Source of the DNA: a virus
Strand: one strand, 5' to 3'
Virus record (IMG/VR): IMGVR_UViG_3300032236_001054
Location: 1 to 44,793 of that record
DNA: 44,793 nucleotides
Shown: piece after piece, positions 1,481 to 44,788 of the stretch
How positions within the stretch are numbered: the stretch's first letter is position 1
Layout of the letters: each line of letters starts with the position of its first letter
The notes under the pieces: model-generated
Seen by the model: the letters and a program-made list of their open reading frames with translations, nothing else
Databases searched by the model: none
Told to the model about the DNA's origin: nothing
Translations under genes and position numbers: made by a program

Positions 1481-1566
1481 GTGCAGTTACGCCCTTGGTT
1501 ACAGTTACCGGTACAGGAGCCTTCGGAAACCTTGGAAAACCAATAATTAATCCTCGAAAACAGCAA
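1471..1566 (-). CDS. Cys-rich mini-protein with TTG start (31 aa)
   Basis: A frame from TTG 1566 (inside the 3' end of groES) to TAA 1471 (inside the 5' end of the next gene) encodes a 31-residue peptide whose C-terminus reads SCTGNCNQGRNCTCK, with four cysteines in 12 residues. I recall short phage proteins ending in a C-x-G-x-C-N-Q-G-R-x-C-x-C pattern, which is why I trust it. An AAGAAG purine run lies a few nt upstream of the TTG. The four Cys could bind a metal. The start codon is uncertain; the reading frame is more secure. Confidence 0.6.
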   Translation of the reverse strand: MLFSRINYWFSKVSEGSCTGNCNQGRNCTCK

Positions 1567-1807
1567 TGATATCTTCTTCTTTAATAATGTAAAACTCATC
1601 TTGATCCACCTTTGATTTGGTCGCCTTATTCCAGTTTGCTAGTATAACATCTCCAGGTTTTACGTCAACCACATCCGTACCAACCGCTAGAACTTTGCCG
1701 CGATTTGCTTCGGATGGGTCTGCACTGGACAGGACAATACCACTTGCTGTGGTGGTTTCTTTTTGGATCAACTCAATGATAACTCGGTCTTTTAGTGGTG
1801 TAATCAT
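1547..1807 (-). CDS. groES: GroES-like co-chaperonin (T4 gp31 analogue)
   Basis: At 86 aa it has the usual GroES length and layout: N-terminal PLKDRVIIEL, mobile-loop region TTTASGIVL (about residues 19-27), the GKVLAVG strand and the C-terminal EEDIIAVFE strand. It should cap host GroEL, as T4 gp31 does during capsid protein folding. It is closer to bacterial GroES than to gp31 in length and motifs. It is transcribed leftward from the intergenic region at 1808-1882, divergently from the small plus-strand gene. Confidence 0.93.
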   Translation of the reverse strand: MITPLKDRVIIELIQKETTTASGIVLSSADPSEANRGKVLAVGTDVVDVKPGDVILANWNKATKSKVDQDEFYIIKEEDIIAVFED

Positions 1808-5270: not shown

Positions 5271-5286
5271 GTTGTATTTTTACAAC
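5271..5286. repeat. 16-nt palindrome upstream of early promoter (copy 1)
   Basis: GTTGTATTTTTACAAC, an inverted repeat ending 5 nt upstream of the -35 box of the promoter at 5238-5265. Nearly the same 16-mer occurs at 5704-5719 and 6139-6154. Candidate operator or UP-element-like site. Confidence 0.6.
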
Positions 5287-5471
5287 TAAATTTCAGTAAT
5301 GTAGAGACAACCGTCTTTTACTTCAAGGTTTAATTTAGTTCCTTCTACCCATCCAGTAATTTCAATCAGTTCTGGAGGAAAAGTCAGAATTCCATCGCCG
5401 GATCCGTCAGGAGCATCTTCAATAATTGCTGGCCAAGAACGGTCATTCATATTGATGTTTAAGTTTGTCAT
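5286..5471 (-). CDS. AbrB/MazE-like small protein (61 aa)
   Basis: The frame can be read from a TTG at 5492, but ATG 5471 is the more ordinary start. The C-terminal half (GILTFPPELIEITGWVEG then KLNLEVKDGCLYI) has the spacing of a swapped-hairpin AbrB/SpoVT domain: hydrophobic PxELxxxxGW, a glycine, then a beta strand ending in GCLYI. Such proteins bind DNA or act as antitoxins, but no toxin gene is evident beside it. It overlaps the next gene upstream by 29 nt and ends with TAG within the palindrome before the promoter. Confidence 0.6.
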   Translation of the reverse strand: MTNLNINMNDRSWPAIIEDAPDGSGDGILTFPPELIEITGWVEGTKLNLEVKDGCLYITEI

Positions 5472-5598
5472 AATTTTCTTGGTCCTGCTCAAATTGAGTC
5501 AAATTGGCCCACATTTTAGTAACTTCAATTAGTGATTTTACTGCTTCTTGGTCAACTTTGAGTGTTTCCGGCTTACGGTCATCATTTTGTATTTGCAT
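5443..5598 (-). CDS. Small hypothetical protein (51 aa)
   Basis: ATG 5598 to TGA 5443. The product (MQIQNDDRKPETLKVDQ...) is a charged, probably helical peptide with a WANLTQFEQDQENYDKL coiled-coil-like segment. It begins 4 nt after the stop of the 44-aa gene and overlaps the AbrB-like gene. Both overlapping frames look plausible; this one fits the tight packing of the operon. Confidence 0.55.
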   Translation of the reverse strand: MQIQNDDRKPETLKVDQEAVKSLIEVTKMWANLTQFEQDQENYDKLKHQYE

Positions 5599-6103: not shown

Positions 6104-6131
6104 ATTATACAGAGATTTTAGGATTTGTCAA
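6104..6131 (-). promoter_or_regulatory. Sigma-70-like (early-type) promoter
   Basis: Minus-strand TTGACA (6131-6126), 16-nt spacer, TATAAT (6109-6104). Perfect hexamers with the same spacer as the promoter at 5238. It drives the block of small genes leftward from 6081. A palindrome copy lies 7 nt upstream of the -35 box. Confidence 0.85.
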
Positions 6132-6349: not shown

Positions 6350-6772
6350 TTATGGTAACATTCCTGGGAATGCTTCTTTAACAAATTTATAATCTAGGCC
6401 TTTTACACCCAAGTCTTTATTGAAAATACCAATAACAACTTCGGCCTCTCTAGGTTCCAAATTCTGGAGATATTCAACCAGTAATTGGTTACGTTTTTGT
6501 GGTGTGAGTTTTTCAGCGGTTGGATCACCTTTACGGAACATATAGAGTTTCCGAATCTCGGTGGTCAATTGAGCATATCCCATTCCGGCAGGAATATCTT
6601 TGATTTGATAACCTGGTGGAACTTCGTGGTGCAACCATTCATATTGAGGATGAAATGCTAATTCCAAAACTTGTGTCATCACTTTGGAAACATTTCTCTG
6701 CAATATTGCTAATCGTTCTTTTTTATTTTTGGCTAATTCAAATTCGTCAAAAACTTCATACATATTCTTCAT
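6350..6772 (-). CDS. Conserved T4-like phage protein, DUF6433-like (140 aa)
   Basis: The layout (charged helical N-terminus, KNKKERLAILQRN, then LQNLEPREAEVVIGIFNKDLG and a C-terminal YKFVKEAFPGML) matches a conserved hypothetical family in T4-like cyanophages that I recall as DUF6433. The closing K-x-V-x-E-A-F-P-G motif is the strongest feature. Function is unknown. It starts in a TAATG overlap with the RNase H stop, so the two are translationally coupled, and it may act in replication. Confidence 0.72.
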   Translation of the reverse strand: MKNMYEVFDEFELAKNKKERLAILQRNVSKVMTQVLELAFHPQYEWLHHEVPPGYQIKDIPAGMGYAQLTTEIRKLYMFRKGDPTAEKLTPQKRNQLLVEYLQNLEPREAEVVIGIFNKDLGVKGLDYKFVKEAFPGMLP

Positions 6773-7623
6773 TAGAAATCCTCAATCACATCCATAAGGT
6801 TGGTTAGTTTGTTTTGAATAAAATAATTCAACATTTTCTGCTTAGTAGCAGGTTTTGTTTCCTCATAAGTATTTATGATTTTCTCTTTAATTTCGGATGG
6901 AATGCAAGTTAGGTCAATCAGTGTCTTATTACGAGAGAAACCAATCTTTGCATTTTCATCCGACCAATCTTCGGCATTTTCTTTTAGAAGTTTATCTAAA
7001 ACGCCCTTAGTAATGGGTTTTTGTCTCAAATCACGGACAAAACAATCACTTGGTGAAAAGATATTTGGAATACCATCACCCTTATCACCACGAATAATCT
7101 TTTCTTGGAGTTCCAAGAGTGGATCTTCCGATTTTAGGTATTTCTTCAATGCAGGATTGTATTGTTTGACATTACTACCCCAGCGTTGCAGTTGCAAGAA
7201 ATCTCCATCACTAGACAAGATAAGGACTTTCTCATGTGATGCATGGCGTGGAACAAGAGTACCAATAATGTCATCAGCCTCGGCCATTTCCACATCAATT
7301 ACTTTGTAAGGAAAGTTTTCTTTCAGTTCTTGCTTAAACTTGGCCAACATGTCAAAAATCAAGTGCCAGTCCAATGTAGACTTCTCACGAGACTTTTTAC
7401 GGCCTGCCTTGTAGTGTGGAAAGAACTCCTTACGCCAGTATTTGCGGTTGTCACAGCAAAGTACAACTTCTCCATATTCTTTACGGAAAGTCTTTAGGTG
7501 CATACGGAGAATATTGAGAACCATATGTCGGATTAAATCTTCTTCCAACTTAACGGTCTTTTGGTTTGAAATTTGAGCCATAAGTCCTGCTAGAAGGACT
7601 TGGTTCAGGTCAACGAGAATCAT
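6772..7623 (-). CDS. rnh: Ribonuclease H / 5'-3' exonuclease (T4 rnh family)
   Basis: The 283-aa protein follows the T4 RNase H / FEN-1 plan. Metal-binding acidic residues appear in order: ILVDLNQ at the N-terminus, VVLCCDNRKYWRKEFFPHYKAG (about 52-75), EADDIIGTL (about 114-122), SSDGDFLQ (about 140) and the helix-hairpin turn RGDKGDGIPN (about 178-187). It removes RNA primers and flaps from lagging-strand fragments, working with the polymerase and gp32-like protein. It has its own sigma-70-like promoter at 7648-7676. Confidence 0.93.
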   Translation of the reverse strand: MILVDLNQVLLAGLMAQISNQKTVKLEEDLIRHMVLNILRMHLKTFRKEYGEVVLCCDNRKYWRKEFFPHYKAGRKKSREKSTLDWHLIFDMLAKFKQELKENFPYKVIDVEMAEADDIIGTLVPRHASHEKVLILSSDGDFLQLQRWGSNVKQYNPALKKYLKSEDPLLELQEKIIRGDKGDGIPNIFSPSDCFVRDLRQKPITKGVLDKLLKENAEDWSDENAKIGFSRNKTLIDLTCIPSEIKEKIINTYEETKPATKQKMLNYFIQNKLTNLMDVIEDF

Positions 7624-8606: not shown

Positions 8607-9593
8607 TCATTTAGCCCAAACATCGGACCAATCTCCAGTCAAGGCACCTTTTGCATAATCGGTTGCACGATTTTCAAAGAAGTTTGTGTGTGTAGGTGCG
8701 TTAATCATTTCTTCAACCCATGGCAATGGATTCTTCTTAACCTTAAAGATGCCTTTAAGTGATAGTGAAATCAATCTACGGTCAGCAATGTAACGGATGT
8801 ATTTCTTAACGTCTTCAGCATTCAAACCTTCCATTTCACCCATTGCAAAAGCCAAGTCAATGAACTTATCTTCCAACTCAACCATCTTTTCAGCAATGGT
8901 GTAAATGCGTGACTTCAATTCATCATTCCAGATTTCTGGATTTTCTTGAATGTAAGTGCGGAACAATTTAATCATGTTCTCAGCGTGTTGTGTTTCATCG
9001 ACAATAGACCATGTAACAATTTGTCCCATGCCCTTCATTTTACCATGACGAGGAAAGTTCAACAACATAATGAATGAGGAGAACAATTGCATACCTTCAG
9101 TAAAGGCACTGAACACGGCGATATGGGTTGCAGTATTCTCTTTAGTTGTATTCTGCTTTGAAATGTCCAACACATAGTCGTGTTTCTCTCTCATTTCAGC
9201 ATACTCTAAGAATTCATTGTATGTTGTTTCAGGCAAACCAAGAGTTTCAATCAAGTGTGAATATGCGGCAACGTGTAATGCTTCACGTGCAGCAAAGCCC
9301 AACAACATCATTCTCATTTCTGGTTGTGGAAAGTATGGTAGATAATTCTTAACATAACCACCAGCAACGTCAATGTCACCTTGTGTGAAGAAACGGAAAA
9401 TGTGTGTCAGAAAATTCTTTTCACTATCTGTTAATTTCTTCTTCCAATCTTTCACATCTTCCATCATTGGCACTTCTGTGTGAAGCCAATGTGATTGTTC
9501 ATGTTTCAACCATGCATCATATGCCCAAGCATAGTTGAAAGGTTTAAAGTAACTACGTTCCGATGTTACATCATTCTGCGCTTTCTTAATCAT
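8607..9593 (-). CDS. nrdB: Ribonucleotide reductase class Ia beta subunit
   Basis: ATG 9593 overlaps the TGA of the thioredoxin gene (ATGA), so it is preferred over the ATG at 9605, giving 328 aa. Diiron and radical residues are all present: E40 (HTEVP), E104 and H107 with the radical tyrosine Y111 (REALHVAAY), E166 (FTEGMQ), E200 and H203 (DETQH). It generates the tyrosyl radical for NrdA-catalysed reduction of ribonucleotides. It follows nrdA and thioredoxin in one transcription unit. Confidence 0.96.
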   Translation of the reverse strand: MIKKAQNDVTSERSYFKPFNYAWAYDAWLKHEQSHWLHTEVPMMEDVKDWKKKLTDSEKNFLTHIFRFFTQGDIDVAGGYVKNYLPYFPQPEMRMMLLGFAAREALHVAAYSHLIETLGLPETTYNEFLEYAEMREKHDYVLDISKQNTTKENTATHIAVFSAFTEGMQLFSSFIMLLNFPRHGKMKGMGQIVTWSIVDETQHAENMIKLFRTYIQENPEIWNDELKSRIYTIAEKMVELEDKFIDLAFAMGEMEGLNAEDVKKYIRYIADRRLISLSLKGIFKVKKNPLPWVEEMINAPTHTNFFENRATDYAKGALTGDWSDVWAK

Positions 9594-9835
9594 ACTTCTG
9601 CCCATTCTTTTAGTAATTTTGGTGTTTTGACTCCGACATTTCGTTTCACTTCAATGTTTTCATCTAACAATACTAAAGTGGGAACAGAACGAATACCATA
9701 TTGATTTGCAATATCTTCATTCACATCGATATCAATAACCTCAATAGGTAGTTTTAGTTCTGCTCTTTCCAGATTTGCGGCCAATGTTTTGCATGGTTGG
9801 CACCATGATGCAGTAAATCTCAAAATTCTTTTCAT
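9590..9835 (-). CDS. Thioredoxin / glutaredoxin-like reductant (81 aa)
   Basis: ATG 9835 has a GAGGGA Shine-Dalgarno formed by the end of nrdA; the longer frame from 9874 would overlap nrdA out of frame and is rejected. The protein has FTASWCQPCKTL (WCxxC active site at residues about 11-15) and the cis-proline SVPTLVLL. It is short for a thioredoxin, as phage versions are. It is probably the electron donor that re-reduces NrdA, consistent with its place between nrdA and nrdB. Confidence 0.92.
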   Translation of the reverse strand: MKRILRFTASWCQPCKTLAANLERAELKLPIEVIDIDVNEDIANQYGIRSVPTLVLLDENIEVKRNVGVKTPKLLKEWAEV

Positions 9836-9836
9836 A

Positions 9837-10142
9837 TTATCCCTCACATGCGATACAATCATTACCTTGTGCAATTTGTGTCATGTCAATTTCTTTAATA
9901 ACTTGACGTTCAATCTTCTTGGAAACCTTGTCGGCTTTACCAATCTTTTCAGAACGGCAGTAGTACAAAGTCTTCAATCCTTTTTTCCATGCCATAAAAT
10001 GAATAGCATGAACGTATTTAATATTAGCATCTGGACGGAAGAACAGATTCAATGATTGTGCTTGGTCGATATACATTTGTCTATCTGCGGCCAAGTCAAT
10101 CACCCAACGTTGGTCAATTTCCATAGATGTTTTAAATACTGC
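9837..10142 (-). CDS. nrdA: NrdA C-terminal part, downstream of in-frame TAG
   Basis: This is the in-frame continuation of the alpha subunit: after the TAG at 10145-10143 the frame reads AVFKTSMEIDQRW and onwards without loss. It holds the last part of the barrel, the radical-transfer tyrosine pair in LKTLYYCRSE and the C-terminal redox cysteines in DCIACEG. An internal ATG at 10124 could start a separate 95-aa peptide, but no Shine-Dalgarno precedes it. Without this part the upstream fragment cannot be an active reductase, so it is either made by readthrough or reinitiation, or the gene is broken. Confidence 0.85.
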   Translation of the reverse strand, partial: AVFKTSMEIDQRWVIDLAADRQMYIDQAQSLNLFFRPDANIKYVHAIHFMAWKKGLKTLYYCRSEKIGKADKVSKKIERQVIKEIDMTQIAQGNDCIACEG

Positions 10143-10145
10143 CTA
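10143..10145 (-). other. nrdA: In-frame amber codon interrupting nrdA
   Basis: TAG on the minus strand lies between codons for DDE and AVFKT. In the NrdA family the residue at this point is usually Lys (E-K-A-V-F-K), so a single AAG-to-TAG change would explain it. Neither side shows a frameshift, insertion or homing endonuclease. Confidence 0.85.
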
Positions 10146-11621
10146 TTCATCATCACTTAGAATGTCTAAATGTTGAACCGAACCATCGTTGGCAATAATA
10201 GAAGACCATACTTCATTATATTTGTCGGTGTCGGTAATCAACTCTTTAAGAATTTTATCCAACCAACGGTTCTTATTCAAAAATGAGCCCGATAAAGTAT
10301 CTTGACGGTACGCATTAGCTCGATAAGGCTCAATACTAGGGCTAGTATTTCCCATGATGATAGACGAAGAAGCATTTGGAGCGATAGCCATAAGATGACT
10401 AAAACGCAAACCAGTACCCTCAGCATCCGGAGCTTCTCCACGTTCTGTTCCCAAAGATTTATTAGCTTCATCTAATCCCTCTCTAATACTTTTGAAGATT
10501 CTATTGTTAGCAACTTTTGCCATCACACCTTCGAATGCAATTCCGTTCTTTTGTAGATATGCATGAAAACCGAGGGCACCAACACCAATAGAGCGTTCAC
10601 GCATAGCAGACCATTTTGCTCTTTGTACGACACCAGGAGCATTATCAATGAAATACTGTAGAACGTTATCAAGCATCTCAGCAACGTCCCTAAGAAAAAG
10701 TGGCTCATTCTTCCAATCATCATAAGTCTCCAAATTCAAACTAGACAAACAACATACAGCAGTACGTTCTTTGTTTGTTGGCAAAATGATTTCAGAACAC
10801 AAGTTTGATTGGTGAACTTTCAAACCTTTTTCTTTTAACCATTCTGGCAATTCACGATTACTTGTATCAATAAAATGAATGTATGGTTCGCCTGTGTGCA
10901 TACGCAATTCCAGGATTTGTTGCCACAAACTTCTTGCAGAAACGGTTTCACGAATTTCTTTTGAGAATGGATCAATTAAGTTCCATGAATCGTCTGCATT
11001 AGGATCCAACATACACTTTTCAATGATGGTCATGAAATCATCTGTAATGTTGATGCCATGGTGCAAATTCAAACAACGCACATTTGGATCACCTGTTGGC
11101 TTACGCATTTCTAGGAATGGAATAATGTCAGGGTGACTAATATCAAGGTAAGCAGCATAAGAACCACGGCGAGTCCGGCCTTGGCGATAAGCCAGAGATG
11201 ATGCATCGTAAATTTTGAGGTGTGGCATAACGCCAGTAGATTTGTCATCCGCAGAACGTATCCCGAAACCGATGCCAACACCACCGCCAAACATAGACAA
11301 CCAATTAGTTTCAGAAAGATTATCAACTAGACCCTCCGCTGTATCATTAATATAATTTAGAAAACATGAAATAGGTAGGCCTTTTTTAGAACGACCGAAT
11401 GATAAGATTGGTGTTGAATATGACAACCAATGTTTAGACGAATAATCGTATAGTCTCTGTGCATGTTCTGGATTGGATCCAAAAGATGCTGATACGAATG
11501 CAAAACGTTCTTGAGGTGATGTTTCTTCCTCACGCATGTACGATTCTTTTAATCGTTTAACACCCAATTCATCAAATAGCTTATCACGTTCTAAGTCTAT
11601 CTTAATGCCCATGTATTCCAT
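10143..11621 (-). CDS. nrdA: Ribonucleotide reductase class I alpha subunit, N-terminal 492 aa
   Basis: Starts at ATG 11621 behind AAGGA. Catalytic residues are in place: C86 (ISCFLN), N273, C275 and E277 (SNLCSEI), the second redox cysteine in AVCCLSS (about 290) and the GNTSPSIEP loop. The usual N-terminal ATP-cone is absent, so allosteric activity control is probably missing, as in some phage enzymes. The frame ends at an in-frame TAG, about 100 codons before the expected C-terminus. It forms one operon with MazG-like and thyX upstream and thioredoxin and nrdB downstream. Confidence 0.93.
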   Translation of the reverse strand: MEYMGIKIDLERDKLFDELGVKRLKESYMREEETSPQERFAFVSASFGSNPEHAQRLYDYSSKHWLSYSTPILSFGRSKKGLPISCFLNYINDTAEGLVDNLSETNWLSMFGGGVGIGFGIRSADDKSTGVMPHLKIYDASSLAYRQGRTRRGSYAAYLDISHPDIIPFLEMRKPTGDPNVRCLNLHHGINITDDFMTIIEKCMLDPNADDSWNLIDPFSKEIRETVSARSLWQQILELRMHTGEPYIHFIDTSNRELPEWLKEKGLKVHQSNLCSEIILPTNKERTAVCCLSSLNLETYDDWKNEPLFLRDVAEMLDNVLQYFIDNAPGVVQRAKWSAMRERSIGVGALGFHAYLQKNGIAFEGVMAKVANNRIFKSIREGLDEANKSLGTERGEAPDAEGTGLRFSHLMAIAPNASSSIIMGNTSPSIEPYRANAYRQDTLSGSFLNKNRWLDKILKELITDTDKYNEVWSSIIANDGSVQHLDILSDDE

Positions 11622-12662: not shown

Positions 12663-13664
12663 CTATACTTTCTTCCAGTTTACAAATTCCATTTTTGCTC
12701 GTAGGTTTACAAACGAGTGTTTCTCCATTATATCACACAATTCATCTTTGTCAAATCCTGACAAAACCATGTCATTCACATCTTTGTCCGTAATCATTTC
12801 AGGCCAAATCACAACATTGAAGTGGTTATCTATGGCCTTTTCCATCAACTTTACAATTTCTTTATTCCTTGGTTCATTGTCATAGACTAATACAATTTTG
12901 GATTTGTCCAAATATTCTGCGGCTGTTTCCAAGGCTGAACTGGCAACGGCAACAGAATTTTTAATAAACATAGAATCAATAGGACCCTCAAAAACAAAAA
13001 TCTTCTCCTCTTGATTAACACGGTCAATGCCAAACATGCGTGGACCTTCGTCCGTTAGTTTAATTGTGATGTAACGTATCTTTGACTCACCTAGAGCACG
13101 GCCTTGAAATCCAGTGATGTTTCCTTCTTTGTCATGAAACGGAATAACAAGGCGTTTGTCTCCAGCAATAATATCTTTATCAACACCAAAAGAATCCACA
13201 AAAGATTTGTAGTCTTCGGCATAATATAGATTGCCATACATTTCTTCTGGTATTTTGCGACCAGTTACATATTGTTTAGCAAAATGTTCATCCGGTAACT
13301 CAGAGATTTTAGGTAAGTCTAGACTTTTCTTAAAGACTGGTTTAACCATCAACTCTGAGAATGTTGGTTCAGGACTATTTGTATTTGCGGAGTTCTTATA
13401 GACTTCTAGCGTGTATTCTTCCAATAAATTTGGGTCAACTTGCTTTAGAAAGTTATAGAAAGATGTGGATGCACCACAGTTGTGACACATATAGAAGTAG
13501 TCATTCTTCTTTCGGAAGATGTAGCCACGACTTTTTGTTTTGTTTTTTTGGGAATCTCCACAGAGAGGACAACGAAAGTTGTATAAGTCATCCTTCTTCT
13601 TTGCAAACCTCAGCAATTTTGGCGCCAGCTGGAGGAGAAAACTACGGTCAATAAAAACACTCAT
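12663..13664 (-). CDS. DNA primase (T4 gp61-like)
   Basis: The N-terminus has a zinc-binding domain with C32, C35, C60 and C63 (CPLCGD ... CHNCGAS). The central part has TOPRIM motifs: IFVFEGPIDSMF (acidic first motif) and KIVLVYDNEPRN (the second, D-x-E-type). At 333 aa it is close to T4 gp61. It makes RNA primers together with the helicase encoded at 30702-32084. The primase gene is well away from the helicase, as in T4. Confidence 0.92.
   Translation of the reverse strand: MSVFIDRSFLLQLAPKLLRFAKKKDDLYNFRCPLCGDSQKNKTKSRGYIFRKKNDYFYMCHNCGASTSFYNFLKQVDPNLLEEYTLEVYKNSANTNSPEPTFSELMVKPVFKKSLDLPKISELPDEHFAKQYVTGRKIPEEMYGNLYYAEDYKSFVDSFGVDKDIIAGDKRLVIPFHDKEGNITGFQGRALGESKIRYITIKLTDEGPRMFGIDRVNQEEKIFVFEGPIDSMFIKNSVAVASSALETAAEYLDKSKIVLVYDNEPRNKEIVKLMEKAIDNHFNVVIWPEMITDKDVNDMVLSGFDKDELCDIMEKHSFVNLRAKMEFVNWKKV
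12727..12754 (-). promoter_or_regulatory. Sigma-70-like promoter inside the primase gene, upstream of thyX
   Basis: Minus-strand TTGACA (12754-12749), 16-nt spacer, TATAAT (12732-12727). Both hexamers are perfect although they also encode primase residues. The predicted start is about 60 nt upstream of thyX. Confidence 0.65.
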
Positions 13665-41992: not shown

Positions 41993-42066
41993 TGGAGCGG
42001 GATAGCGGAATCGAACCGCTGACTAAAACTTGGAAGGATCTCGTTTTACCATTAAACTAATCCCGC
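41993..42066 (-). tRNA. tRNA-Gly(TCC)
   Basis: Acceptor GCGGGAT/ATCCCGC, D-arm GTTT..AAAC, anticodon loop CTTCCAA (TCC), T-arm GCGG-TTCGATT-CCGC, discriminator T and an encoded CCA. One U-U mismatch in the anticodon stem. Confidence 0.9.
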
Positions 42067-42074
42067 TTATAAAT

Positions 42075-42148
42075 TGGTTGCGAGACCAGGAATCGAACCT
42101 GGACCTGGAGCGTATGAGACTCCTGAGTTACCGTTTCTCTATCTCGCT
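42075..42148 (-). tRNA. tRNA with CAT anticodon (Met or Ile2)
   Basis: Anticodon arm GGAGT-CTCATAC-GCTCC, T-arm CCAGG-TTCGATT-CCTGG, encoded CCA. The first acceptor pair is A-A, an unpaired end that is a feature of initiator tRNAs, but the three G-C pairs of an initiator anticodon stem are missing. Met, fMet and Ile2 cannot be told apart here. Confidence 0.88.
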
Positions 42149-42159
42149 ATGTATATAGG

Positions 42160-42236
42160 TGGTGCGGCTGGTGGGACTCGAACCCACAAAACTCGGATTT
42201 TAAGTCCGATACGTATACCAATTCCATCACAACCGC
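42160..42236 (-). tRNA. tRNA-Leu(TAA) lacking a long variable arm
   Basis: Acceptor GCGGTTG/CAGCCGC, Leu-type D-loop (GGAATTGGTA), anticodon loop CTTAAAA (TAA), T-arm GTGGG-TTCGAGT-CCCAC, CCA encoded. The variable region is only GTTTT, whereas bacterial Leu tRNAs carry a long extra arm. Confidence 0.88.
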
Positions 42237-42257
42237 ATAATTAAGTGTATTCTTTAT

Positions 42258-42335
42258 TGGTACCCCTGCTCAGATTCGAACCGAGAGAACTCTTCCTTTT
42301 GAGAGAAGTGACTTTACCAATTTGTCCACAGGGGC
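42258..42335 (-). tRNA. tRNA-Leu(CAA) lacking a long variable arm
   Basis: Acceptor GCCCCTG/CAGGGGT, D-arm GAC..GTC with AAATTGGTAAA loop, anticodon loop CTCAAAA (CAA), variable AGTTCT, T-arm CTCGG-TTCGAAT-CTGAG, CCA encoded. Second Leu tRNA in the cluster with a shortened variable region. Confidence 0.87.
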
Positions 42336-42342
42336 AAAATCT

Positions 42343-42418
42343 TGGTGCAACCCACAGGAATCGAACCTGTTTCCATGGTTCTTCAGACCACCGCTATGAC
42401 CACATCAGCTAGAGTTGC
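42343..42418 (-). tRNA. tRNA-Phe(GAA)
   Basis: Acceptor GCAACTC/GGGTTGC, anticodon arm GTGGT-CTGAAGA-ACCAT (GAA), T-arm ACAGG-TTCGATT-CCTGT, discriminator A and CCA encoded. Confidence 0.92.
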
Positions 42419-42420
42419 AT

Positions 42421-42495
42421 TGGTGCTCCCACCAGGAAACGAGCCTGGTTCTCATCCTTACCAAGGATGTGTAATCGCCATTATACTATGGGAGC
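42421..42495 (-). tRNA. tRNA-Thr(GGT)
   Basis: Acceptor GCTCCCA/TGGGAGC, anticodon arm CATCC-TTGGTAA-GGATG (GGT), T-arm ACCAGG..CCTGGT with a TCGTTT-like loop, CCA encoded. Confidence 0.88.
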
Positions 42496-42498
42496 AAG

Positions 42499-42534
42499 TG
42501 ACACACAATTTGTCCTTTTGTACGCCGTGTGTCA
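42499..42534 (-). other. Hairpin between tRNA-Thr and tRNA-Val
   Basis: TGACACAC (42499-42506) and GTGTGTCA (42527-42534) form a perfect 8-bp inverted repeat around a 20-nt loop in the only sizeable spacer of the proximal tRNA cluster. Possible RNA-processing or termination structure. Confidence 0.5.
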
Positions 42535-42543
42535 AGGCGAATT

Positions 42544-42619
42544 TGGTACCTTGTGACGGGTTCGAACCGCCGACATCCTCCTTGTAAGGGAGGCACTCTA
42601 CCAACTGAGTTAACAAGGC
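42544..42619 (-). tRNA. tRNA-Val(TAC)
   Basis: Acceptor GCCTTGT/ACAAGGT, D-arm with AGTTGGTA loop, anticodon arm CCTCC-CTTACAA-GGAGG (TAC), T-arm with GGTTCGAACCC, CCA encoded. Confidence 0.92.
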
Positions 42620-42626
42620 ATATATG

Positions 42627-42699
42627 GGCAGGCGTAAGAGAATTGAACTCTTGATATCGGAATCACAATCCGAGGTTTTACCACTAAACTAACACCTGC
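42627..42699 (-). tRNA. tRNA-His(GTG)
   Basis: Acceptor GCAGGTG/CGCCTGC with discriminator C73, as for His tRNAs, anticodon arm TCGGA-TTGTGAT-TCCGA (GTG), T-arm AAGAG-TTCAATT-CTCTT. The CCA is not fully encoded. Confidence 0.9.
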
Positions 42700-42705
42700 A
42701 TAAAA

Positions 42706-42779
42706 TGGAGCGGGATACCAGAATCGAACTGGTAACTAAACCTTGGCAAGGTTTCGTTTTACCACTAAACTAATCCCGC
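42706..42779 (-). tRNA. tRNA-Gly(GCC)
   Basis: Same acceptor and D-arm as tRNA-Gly(TCC), anticodon arm AAACC-TTGCCAA-GGTTT (GCC), T-arm ACCAG-TTCGATT-CTGGT, CCA encoded. Its first 15 nt overlap the 3' end of the DUF458-like gene. Confidence 0.92.
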
Positions 42780-43265
42780 ACTTTCTAAAACTTCTTGTTC
42801 TGCCAGAATACGCTTCAAACGGTCTGCACAGAATGATGCTGCTGGTGCATCTGGTTTTACCATTGGTGTCATGTTGCAAGTGCCTTTTATATATCCAATT
42901 GCCTGTTGGACAACGCAAGAAGAACCATAAATGTCTTCTTTGTTCAAGTCTAAGTGAACTTCAACATGATGGTCTTCCAGAACGTCCTGGAGACTTTGGA
43001 ACAATTCTGAAACCTTATATACTTCTGTCATCAGACGCATAGCAGGTTTGCTTTTCTTGTGGTCATAATCCAGTTCACGTTCAACGTAACCAAAGATTTT
43101 GCATCCGTGACGGCCATCAATATGAACTACGACAGCCAAAGCATAATCTGCATACCAAACACCATCAACACGAACTCTTTCTGAATCTGCACCAAGATAA
43201 ACTTTAGTATCTGGTCCTTGTGCTGACAAGAATTCTTTAACTTTTTCTATGTCGAAATTTTTCAT
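42765..43265 (-). CDS. RNase H-fold protein, DUF458/YkuK-like (166 aa)
   Basis: The frame is open from 43331, but ATG 43265 follows AAGGATTG and avoids the upstream tRNA-Trp gene. The sequence has KVYLGADSERVRV (Asp first strand), YALAVVVHIDGRHGCKIFGY, EVHLDLNKED and a C-terminal APAASFCADR. This matches the RNase H-like DUF458 family (YkuK), probably binding or cleaving RNA. It sits between tRNA genes, and its last 15 nt, including the TAG stop, lie in tRNA-Gly(GCC). Confidence 0.82.
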   Translation of the reverse strand: MKNFDIEKVKEFLSAQGPDTKVYLGADSERVRVDGVWYADYALAVVVHIDGRHGCKIFGYVERELDYDHKKSKPAMRLMTEVYKVSELFQSLQDVLEDHHVEVHLDLNKEDIYGSSCVVQQAIGYIKGTCNMTPMVKPDAPAASFCADRLKRILAEQEVLESAGLV

Positions 43266-43279
43266 ATCAATCCTTAAAT

Positions 43280-43353
43280 TGGCATCCCAGGAAGGACTCG
43301 AACCCTCACCAACGGTTTTGGAGACCGGCATGCTGCCATTACACTACTGAGAT
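43280..43353 (-). tRNA. tRNA-Trp(CCA)
   Basis: Acceptor ATCTCAG/CTGGGAT, anticodon loop CTCCAAA (CCA), T-arm GAGGG-TTCGAGT-CCTTC, discriminator G typical of Trp, CCA encoded. Confidence 0.88.
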
Positions 43354-43354
43354 A

Positions 43355-43549
43355 TTATTTCTTTACTAATGGATTCTCCACATCATCATAGTGGAGTCCC
43401 AACTCATCCGAAATTCGAGCCAACTCATCAAGAGCCTTCTCTTGTTTCGATTTCTTATCCTTACCAAATATTGCATCCCAATTACTAGCGAACTTGTCTT
43501 GAGATACACTATATGGTCTAGGACTTGAACCTTTACCACCATCACTCAT
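43355..43549 (-). CDS. Conserved small phage protein (64 aa)
   Basis: ATG 43549 follows AGGAG and is preferred over the frame extending into tRNA-Arg. The N-terminus (MSDGGKGSSPRPYSVSQDKF) with NWDAIFGKDKK is a pattern I recall from many unrelated phages. The C-terminus is a charged helix (EKALDELARISDELGL). Function unknown. It ends 1 nt before tRNA-Trp, so the RNA must be cut between them. Confidence 0.78.
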   Translation of the reverse strand: MSDGGKGSSPRPYSVSQDKFASNWDAIFGKDKKSKQEKALDELARISDELGLHYDDVENPLVKK

Positions 43550-43567
43550 ATTTAATACTCCTAAAAT

Positions 43568-43645
43568 TGGTGCGCCCCGAGGAATTCGAATCCCCAACCT
43601 CACGGGTTCGTAGCCCGGTGCTCTATCCAGTTGAACTAGAGGCGC
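43568..43645 (-). tRNA. tRNA-Arg(ACG)
   Basis: Acceptor GCGCCTC/GGGGCGC, anticodon loop CTACGAA (ACG), D-loop AACTGGATA, T-arm with TTCGAAT, CCA encoded. Confidence 0.9.
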
Positions 43646-43651
43646 ATAAAA

Positions 43652-43745
43652 CCATATAGAAACACACTACGAGCGGGCGGTCGATATCGGATTCCGTTAC
43701 TCACGAATCCAAGTCACTTACCCACAAGAATGTGTTTTTATATGG
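43652..43745 (-). ncRNA. tRNA-like element 1 flanked by CCATATA inverted repeat
   Basis: On the minus strand a 74-nt core (43735-43662) opens with ACACATT and closes with AGTGTGT, a 7-bp acceptor-like stem, extended outward by CCATATA/TATATGG. Inside are a CTT-GTGGGT-AAG D-arm-like hairpin, a GGATTC..GAATCC stem and a weaker third arm. No GGTTCGA T-loop is seen, so it is not a canonical tRNA. Confidence 0.4.
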
Positions 43746-43823
43746 AATCCATTGTGTGTAGGGCATCGAAACCTACATTAAGCCCCATAATGGGCCTTTA
43801 TTACCACTTATAAGAACACGGAT
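43743..43823 (-). ncRNA. Divergent tRNA-like sequence ending in CCA
   Basis: Minus strand ATCCGTG..AATGGAT-T-CCA gives a 6-of-7 acceptor stem and an encoded CCA. A CTT..AAG D-arm with GTGGTAA, a GCCC-ATTATG-GGGC arm (TAT as possible anticodon) and TGTAGG..CCTACA around TTCGAT follow. The arms are the wrong size for a standard tRNA. Confidence 0.4.
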
Positions 43824-43874
43824 TCTTGGGGTCATGACTCCCCAATATGGACAGGGTAATTACTCCTGTTTTTA

Positions 43875-43937
43875 CCATATAGAAACACACTATGCCACGC
43901 TCTGAACCTGGACTCTTAGTAATGTGTTTTTATATGG
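43875..43937 (-). ncRNA. Mini tRNA-like element 2 (43-nt core)
   Basis: Same ACACATT/AGTGTGT acceptor-like stem and CCATATA flanks as elements 1 and 3, but the core (43927-43885) holds only one hairpin, CCAGG-TTCAGAG-CGTGG, like an acceptor plus T-arm minihelix. It may be a decayed copy. Confidence 0.35.
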
Positions 43938-44055
43938 CGTATCAACAATGCCGTATGCATCCGTCATTGCGTCTGTAATTAGTATCCGAGATTCCGAGCC
44001 TCGATATCTATCCCGTAGGTAGCAGTCCCGTGTATGACTTACTAAAAACTGATAT
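43935..44055 (-). ncRNA. Structured sequence ending in CCA between elements 2 and 3
   Basis: Minus strand begins ATATCAG and ends TTGATAC-G-CCA, giving an acceptor-like stem with an A-C first pair. It contains a TATCGAG..CTCGGATA hairpin and a near-palindrome (AATGACGGATGCATACGGCATT without two pairs). At about 120 nt it is too long for an ordinary tRNA. Confidence 0.3.
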
Positions 44056-44056
44056 A

Positions 44057-44153
44057 CCATATAGAAACACACTATGGGATTCGAACCCTTCGTTCAGCAT
44101 CAGAACTTCAAACCTACCCACCTGCTAGCAGGAGTTAATGTGTTTTTATATGG
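44057..44153 (-). ncRNA. tRNA-like element 3 with canonical T-arm
   Basis: 77-nt core (44143-44067) with the shared ACACATT/AGTGTGT stem. It carries GGG-TTCGAAT-CCC, a perfect T-arm core, a GTTC-TGATGCT-GAAC anticodon-like arm whose position 33 is G rather than T, and a CCTG-CTAG-CAGG hairpin. This is the most tRNA-like of the three repeats. Confidence 0.45.
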
Positions 44154-44225
44154 TGGTGATAGAAGGTAACGATCCTTCCTTTGAGGCTTATGAGACCCCC
44201 GCATATCCGTCTATGCTATATCACC
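44151..44225 (-). tRNA. Second tRNA with CAT anticodon
   Basis: Acceptor GGTGATA/TATCACC, D-arm GCAT..ATGC with an AGACGGAT loop, anticodon arm GGGGT-CTCATAA-GCCTC (CAT), T-arm GAAGG-ATCGTTA-CCTTC with an unusual loop, CCA encoded. Met or Ile2. Confidence 0.8.
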
Positions 44226-44233
44226 GAAATGAA

Positions 44234-44428
44234 TTTGTAAGTCGTAGCGTCCCTCATATCGCTACCATTTTCCCTTGTCATAAAGCCGGCAGGGTCAAGA
44301 TCCGTCATTACAGTTACTCATCCAACGCTTCTATCTTTGTGCTAGGGTATTGCGCCCCTCGTTGTTTACCTACTCTTTGGCTGGCCGGCTACTCGAATCG
44401 GTGACTTTCACTTACTGACACTTACAAA
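44234..44428 (-). ncRNA. Candidate structured RNA closed by a 9-bp stem
   Basis: Between 44226 and 44431 no tRNA or CDS is supported. TTTGTAAGT (44234-44242) and ACTTACAAA (44420-44428) are perfect complements. Inside are AGCCGGC/GCCGGCT (long-range), GTAGCG..CGCTAC (hairpin) and AGGG..CCCT. T4 carries two stable RNAs of unknown function (C and D) within its tRNA cluster, which is a reasonable precedent. Confidence 0.4.
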
Positions 44429-44431
44429 ACT

Positions 44432-44509
44432 TGGCGTCCACCGTCGGTATCACACCGCACTCCAAGTCAGCTGGTAAGTGCTGACCTACGAATCTCTCGT
44501 TGAGTGGAC
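44432..44509 (-). ncRNA. Divergent tRNA-like cloverleaf with CCA
   Basis: Acceptor GTCCACT/GGTGGAC with discriminator G and encoded CCA, D-arm ACGA-GAGAT-TCGT, middle arm GTCAGC-ACTTACCA-GCTGAC (8-nt loop) and a short T-arm CGG-TGTGATA-CCG. All four helices are there, but GG in the D-loop and TTC in the T-loop are missing. Amino acid unclear; TAC is in the loop. Confidence 0.5.
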
Positions 44510-44512
44510 TGA

Positions 44513-44558
44513 CTTATATTTCCATCGTTGCCACCACAGCATTGACTACTCATATAAG
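44513..44558 (-). ncRNA. Short structured element with 7-bp closing stem
   Basis: CTTATAT (44513-44519) and ATATAAG (44552-44558) are perfect complements closing a 46-nt unit, with a 32-nt interior. It is similar in size to the 49-nt unit to its right. Confidence 0.3.
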
Positions 44559-44570
44559 CACTAACTTGTA

Positions 44571-44619
44571 GTAGACGCTACCGGGCATTTAGTGCCCGTA
44601 TCACAATTAGTTGGTCTAC
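44571..44619 (-). ncRNA. 49-nt three-way-junction-like element
   Basis: Minus strand GTAGAC..GTCTAC closes a unit with two hairpins, CAA-CTAA-TTG and CGGGCA-CTAAA-TGCCCG. It looks like a reduced tRNA with one arm missing. The second loop contains CTA, but not in the normal anticodon position. Confidence 0.35.
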
Positions 44620-44625
44620 AAAACT

Positions 44626-44704
44626 TGGCTCCGTGTGAGGGAATCGAACCCACCTAGTCATTGATTAACAGTCAAGTCCTTGCACCTTGCTTGGATTTCA
44701 CGGA
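44626..44704 (-). tRNA. tRNA-Asn(GTT), copy 1
   Basis: Acceptor TCCGTGA/ACACGGA with a final A-A mismatch, anticodon arm TTGA-CTGTTAA-TCAA (GTT), T-loop TTCGATT, discriminator G, CCA encoded. T-stem has one mismatch, so it is somewhat degenerate. Confidence 0.82.
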
Positions 44705-44712
44705 ATAAAACT

Positions 44713-44788
44713 TGGCTCCTCGACCTGGGCTCGAACCAGGGACAAACGGATTAACAGTCCGGCACTCTACCAACTGAGCTATCGAGGA
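44713..44788 (-). tRNA. tRNA-Asn(GTT), copy 2
   Basis: Acceptor TCCTCGA/TCGAGGA, D-arm GCTC..GAGT with AGTTGGTA loop, anticodon arm CGGA-CTGTTAA-TCCG (GTT), T-arm CCTGG-TTCGAGC-CCAGG, CCA encoded. A clean tRNA. Confidence 0.93.

Follow-up and report, generated by a model that had tools for sequence, protein, structure and literature searches.

Among the systems described so far, Aeromonas phage Aeh1 offers one of the closest parallels to an interrupted phage nrdA gene: NrdA is encoded in two pieces, nrdA-a and nrdA-b, with the gene of the endonuclease mobE between them, and, according to excerpts of the two reports, such a split phage NrdA can be active (PMC3653736, PMC2988022). The Aeh1 gene breaks at positions 221/222 of the PF02867 profile, and its two matched parts lie about 920 bp apart. 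A second point of comparison is provided by phages in which TAG is recoded and read with suppressor tRNAs; recoding is known from other metagenomic phages and such genomes hold many in-frame TAGs (41 ORFs with an in-frame TAG in phAss-1). The third is the isolated nonsense allele or consensus error in metagenome-assembled phage genes, where one private base turns a codon of an otherwise undamaged gene into a stop and no supporting feature lies nearby.

The DNA analysed here, referred to as the window, is an entire virus record of 44,793 bases that is classed as linear, and such a record is often a fragment. Its nrdA gene shares with that of Aeh1 the coding of NrdA in two pieces on one strand; however, an endonuclease gene or any other insert is absent and the break lies at a different site, near PF02867 position 461 as counted from the profile match. 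As in the TAG-recoded phages, a conserved gene contains an in-frame TAG, but here there is a single one, no tRNA with a CUA anticodon was found in a tRNA array that is cut at the contig end, and TAG is in use as a terminator. No tested feature separates the gene from isolated nonsense alleles or consensus errors. Since the stop is private among the relatives examined, stands alone and is accompanied by no feature making use of it, the TAG very probably reflects a change of one base, not under selection, in what is in other respects a standard class I nrdA; it would be either a null allele of recent origin or an error in the consensus.

Reading frame and family membership of the interrupted nrdA

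The whole gene, including its TAA, occupies 11621-9837 on the minus strand. The ORF 11621..10143 (492 aa) terminates at an in-frame TAG at codon 493 (10145-10143), after which the frame is open for a further 101 codons to the TAA at 9839-9837. The head (10146..11621, minus strand, 492 codons) comprises the all-alpha domain together with the greater part of the barrel domain and matches PF02867 at 1.7e-79 (268 bits), while the tail (9837..10142, minus strand, 101 codons plus TAA) holds the end of the barrel domain and matches the same profile at 1.1e-17 (64 bits, cut-off 23.9). Read through the TAG, the frame scores 763 bits against PRK09102.1, a curated NrdA model with a cut-off of 620, and with the barrel domain and the curated model both above their cut-offs it is placed in the class I NrdA family. 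No Pfam match to an ATP-cone was found in the alpha subunit (10143-11621, minus strand); among solved structures its nearest relatives are 6dqw and 6dqx, which we take to be class Id enzymes. The initial annotation had described 492 codons, a TAG and the same frame going on with family-conserved sequence, without frameshift, intron or endonuclease, and this description stands: both parts match PF02867, the frame is continuous and only the stop codon lies between them.

The catalytic residues are not carried on one polypeptide. By position, the head holds Cys 86, 275 and 290/291, presumably the active-site cysteines, whereas the Tyr 553/554 and Cys 589/592 pairs, which we take to be the radical-transfer tyrosines and the C-terminal cysteines of NrdA, lie 3' of the TAG. 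All of these residues are invariant in a 40-row alignment, which also confirmed the downstream positions that the initial annotation had given for the Tyr and C-terminal Cys pairs. A structure model (mean pLDDT 72.3) places residue 493 in a short helix spanning 490-495, ahead of a helix at 504-515.

The genes around nrdA each match their own family, namely a thioredoxin-like gene (9590..9835) and nrdB (8607..9605), both intact and on the minus strand, and a thyX-type gene. Elsewhere in the window, a small ORF at 1547-1807 (minus strand; ITPLKDRVIIEL...) resembles, by eye, a GroES-type co-chaperonin.

Codon 493 among relatives and the origin of the stop

A protein search of viral contigs with the nrdA head gave at least 593 confirmed stretches, the best 80 of which were kept. 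Since this search was unbiased with respect to the site, it is informative that a sense codon is present there in 80 of these 80 best-matching loci and that none of them has a stop anywhere in the aligned NrdA. A pattern scan of viral contigs for a TRR codon at the site followed by the downstream conserved motif returned no record; as controls, the pattern gave 1 match in the window and its sense-codon version matched 102 of 102 other loci. Conservation of the stop, the mark of programmed readthrough, was therefore found neither among the best 80 loci nor in the TRR scan. A further 22 loci (L083-L104) had been fetched by a pattern demanding a sense codon at the site and so are no evidence on codon 493, for which only the 80 count.

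The 102 related loci correspond to 98 contigs, the pairs L085/L004, L088/L006, L090/L008 and L093/L007 each lying on the same contig. All carry Lys (90) or Arg (12) at the site, encoded by AAA (51), AAG (39), AGA (10) or CGA (2), in keeping with the initial view that the position is normally Lys. That one base change would explain the TAG is correct with respect to the codon of the nearest relatives, which is one base away, but the best local haplotypes (L006, L007 and L092) differ at the preceding base as well. Relatives were also inspected for a long insertion, which the initial annotation had named as a sign of a mis-joined gene, and they carry the gene uninterrupted. Amongst four annotated matches in cultured phages, Cilsick, APTC_SA_13 and Aes508 have one annotated gene across the match; in BvP no annotated gene lies under the NrdA match, which sits near the start of the record.

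At the level of single bases, every base of the window nrdA except the T of the TAG occurs at its position in at least one of the 102 related loci. One such singleton is ordinary, because 13 sister alleles scored likewise carry 0, 1 or 2 unseen bases each, and approximately 4% of random changes in nrdA would create a stop when summed over mutational opportunities. When eight distinct close alleles together with L006 and L008 serve as the reference, the window nrdA has, besides the stop, 8 synonymous private changes and 1 non-synonymous one, one of these falling in the tail, numbers too small to reveal post-stop selection there. The 101-residue tail has no residue difference from L103, L101, L099, L102, L096, L087 and L003. 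A perfectly conserved tail is what a rescued gene would show; with one private change it is uninformative on the age of the stop. Synonymous differences separating the tail from those of related loci are numerous, but they are mostly alleles shared in the population and were discarded as a signal postdating the TAG.

The nearest nrdA alleles show 89-92% DNA identity. In this freshwater-type phage group the nrdA alleles (9837-11621 in the window) are mosaic, with the closest relative switching every few dozen codons, and the pattern of identities suggests frequent recombination or a mixing of strains in the assemblies. L103 is nearly identical to the window nrdA over codons 373-483, and around codons 462-484 another allele becomes the closest. 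This change raised the possibility of a misjoin at the TAG, which was rejected as not specific, because the closest allele switches along the whole gene.

Interruptions are scarce in the related contigs, which counts against an unselected event: among 481 related gene copies from 25 families (91 of them nrdA copies) no internal stop is credible, the two in L068 lying near the start of one match of 56% identity. A possible frameshift was seen at about 5079-5082 of L049, in an exonuclease-like gene (6772-7623 in the window), and is the sole one in the 481 copies. Neither errors nor null alleles are thus common in any given gene; if enough windows and genes are scanned, some such events would, we infer, still be met. 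When the ORFs of relatives were compared with the window, nrdA was the only credible interrupted gene, the raw list of more than 100 positions consisting nearly entirely of antisense, short or shadow ORFs as judged by eye. Second interrupted genes at 5501 and 1813 were rejected because the stop precedes the likely true start, and one at 6120 because the stop coincides with only the sixth residue of the ORF in one relative.

Within the unselected event, its two forms receive near-equal weight: a nonsense allele that arose recently in this phage genotype is plausible at slightly below even chances, and a wrong consensus base in the contig is about as plausible. The initial annotation had listed both a broken gene and an assembly error among its options, and these are the likely answers, whereas nothing found supports the readthrough, suppression or two-piece assembly that were listed beside them.

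The tRNA array and explanations in which the stop is bypassed

That the stop is real and tolerated, with amber suppression or head-tail assembly giving a working NrdA, is on the whole quite unlikely. In the case of suppression or readthrough, some full-length NrdA would be made with the help of an amber suppressor of the host or of a CUA tRNA encoded on an unsequenced part of the phage genome. The intact and conserved tail agrees with this, and so does the state of the tRNA array (41993..44788, minus strand), which runs up to the contig end with 13 tRNA genes called, compared with up to 32 in the array piece of one relative. None of the 13 has a CUA anticodon, a negative that is not final as the array stops at the contig end, and none was called in 14 pieces of DNA representing 11 relatives, although three of these pieces are without any tRNA. 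A looser, home-made anticodon scan for CUA, which as controls recovered the tRNAs for Trp, Phe and His and one of two for Met, found none in the window; in other loci its sole hit was a weak candidate in L030, a locus for which ARAGORN reports no tRNA. Along with the fact that the stop is common to no relative examined, these results make suppression very unlikely. Next to the tRNA-Asn gene of the array lies a degenerate tRNA-like sequence (44629-44704, minus strand); its match to the tRNA family reaches 23.3 bits, where the gathering score is 29, and it is not called by ARAGORN.

The array of the window also contains three hairpins (43653-43744, 43876-43936 and 44058-44152, minus strand), in which a nearly invariant 15-bp stem (CATATAAAAACACATT ... 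GTGTGTTTCTATATG) encloses a hypervariable interior. Copies occur three times in L110 and once each in L114, L116, L117, L118 and L119, and one pair of the L118 stem has changed on both sides together. An exact pattern scan of viral contigs gave at least 120 stretches, of which 80 loci (L129-L208) with 87 elements were kept. In these 80 of at least 120 stretches the hairpin is on the strand of the nearest tRNA in 87/87 elements and within 300 bp of it in 83/87, the nearest being tRNA-Lys for 47/87; as read from the flanks, the first bases of the hairpin often overlap the CCA end of the upstream tRNA. The window copies have no match in Rfam, even at E up to 1, and among the papers found in a literature search none names such a hairpin in its title or the opening of its abstract. 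Judging from these pattern matches, the hairpin is widespread in phages and possibly represents an undescribed RNA element.

Assembly of NrdA from two pieces, as in Aeh1, would have the head end at the TAG and the tail restart at an in-frame ATG 18 nt further on, which opens an ORF of 95 codons (9837..10124, minus strand). The activity reported for a split phage NrdA, in excerpts of PMC3653736 and PMC2988022, gives this a precedent, and short PHROGs families that match the C-terminus of NrdA (phrog_10616 and phrog_33412) point in the same direction. However, no Shine-Dalgarno sequence precedes the internal ATG, whereas the start of nrdA has AAGGA, and the ATG is no adaptation because its Met is invariant in intact relatives. 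The lack of an insert and the distance from the Aeh1 break also count against a split of that type, as does the fact that the site is unsplit in 80/80 relatives (the best 80 of at least 593), and two-piece assembly is therefore highly improbable. The two PHROGs families match C-terminal NrdA only (within residues 448-567 of P0001), phrog_10616 from residue 493 and phrog_33412 from residue 448, and by these matches some phages may carry an NrdA tail as a separate piece. Among the papers found in a literature search, none deals with a premature stop codon in phage nrdA by its title or the opening of its abstract.

A phage-wide recoding, with TAG read as a sense codon throughout as in the recoded metagenomic phages, has practically negligible probability and is contradicted by the window itself, in which a single gene has a credible in-frame TAG and four other ORFs among the 56 listed terminate in TAG, with stops or non-family sequence beyond, namely an epimerase-like gene (2041-2865), an AbrB-like gene (5286-5492), a primase-like gene (12663-13664) and a DUF458/RNaseH-like gene (42765-43331). 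The labels epimerase and AbrB come from the initial annotation, which had already taken TAG to be not reassigned on the strength of these genes other than the primase-like one.

Consequences for the phage ribonucleotide reductase

If the TAG is real, translation would stop after residue 492 and the product would be without the radical-transfer tyrosines and the C-terminal cysteines. A head without Tyr 553/554 and Cys 589/592 would be inactive, leaving the NrdA of this phage essentially null, and infection would then depend on the ribonucleotide reductase of the host. Phages whose own nrd genes are defective can make use of the host enzyme in this way. The initial annotation had held that the split must be overcome for activity, which is true for the activity of NrdA, because the invariant Tyr and C-terminal Cys pairs follow the stop, but that it is actually overcome does not follow.

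The private stop in this nrdA most likely reflects an isolated mutation or a mistake in the sequence rather than a novel route to the enzyme. Private nonsense codons in auxiliary phage genes are common, whether as events or as errors, and the present one matters little as found, although it calls for caution, as nrdA seems split or recoded until relatives are compared. Should the stop be real and bypassed, it would show that a split enzyme can start from one base, and a tolerated stop would mean that a split or recoded ribonucleotide reductase can arise from a single nonsense codon, with no mobile element involved.
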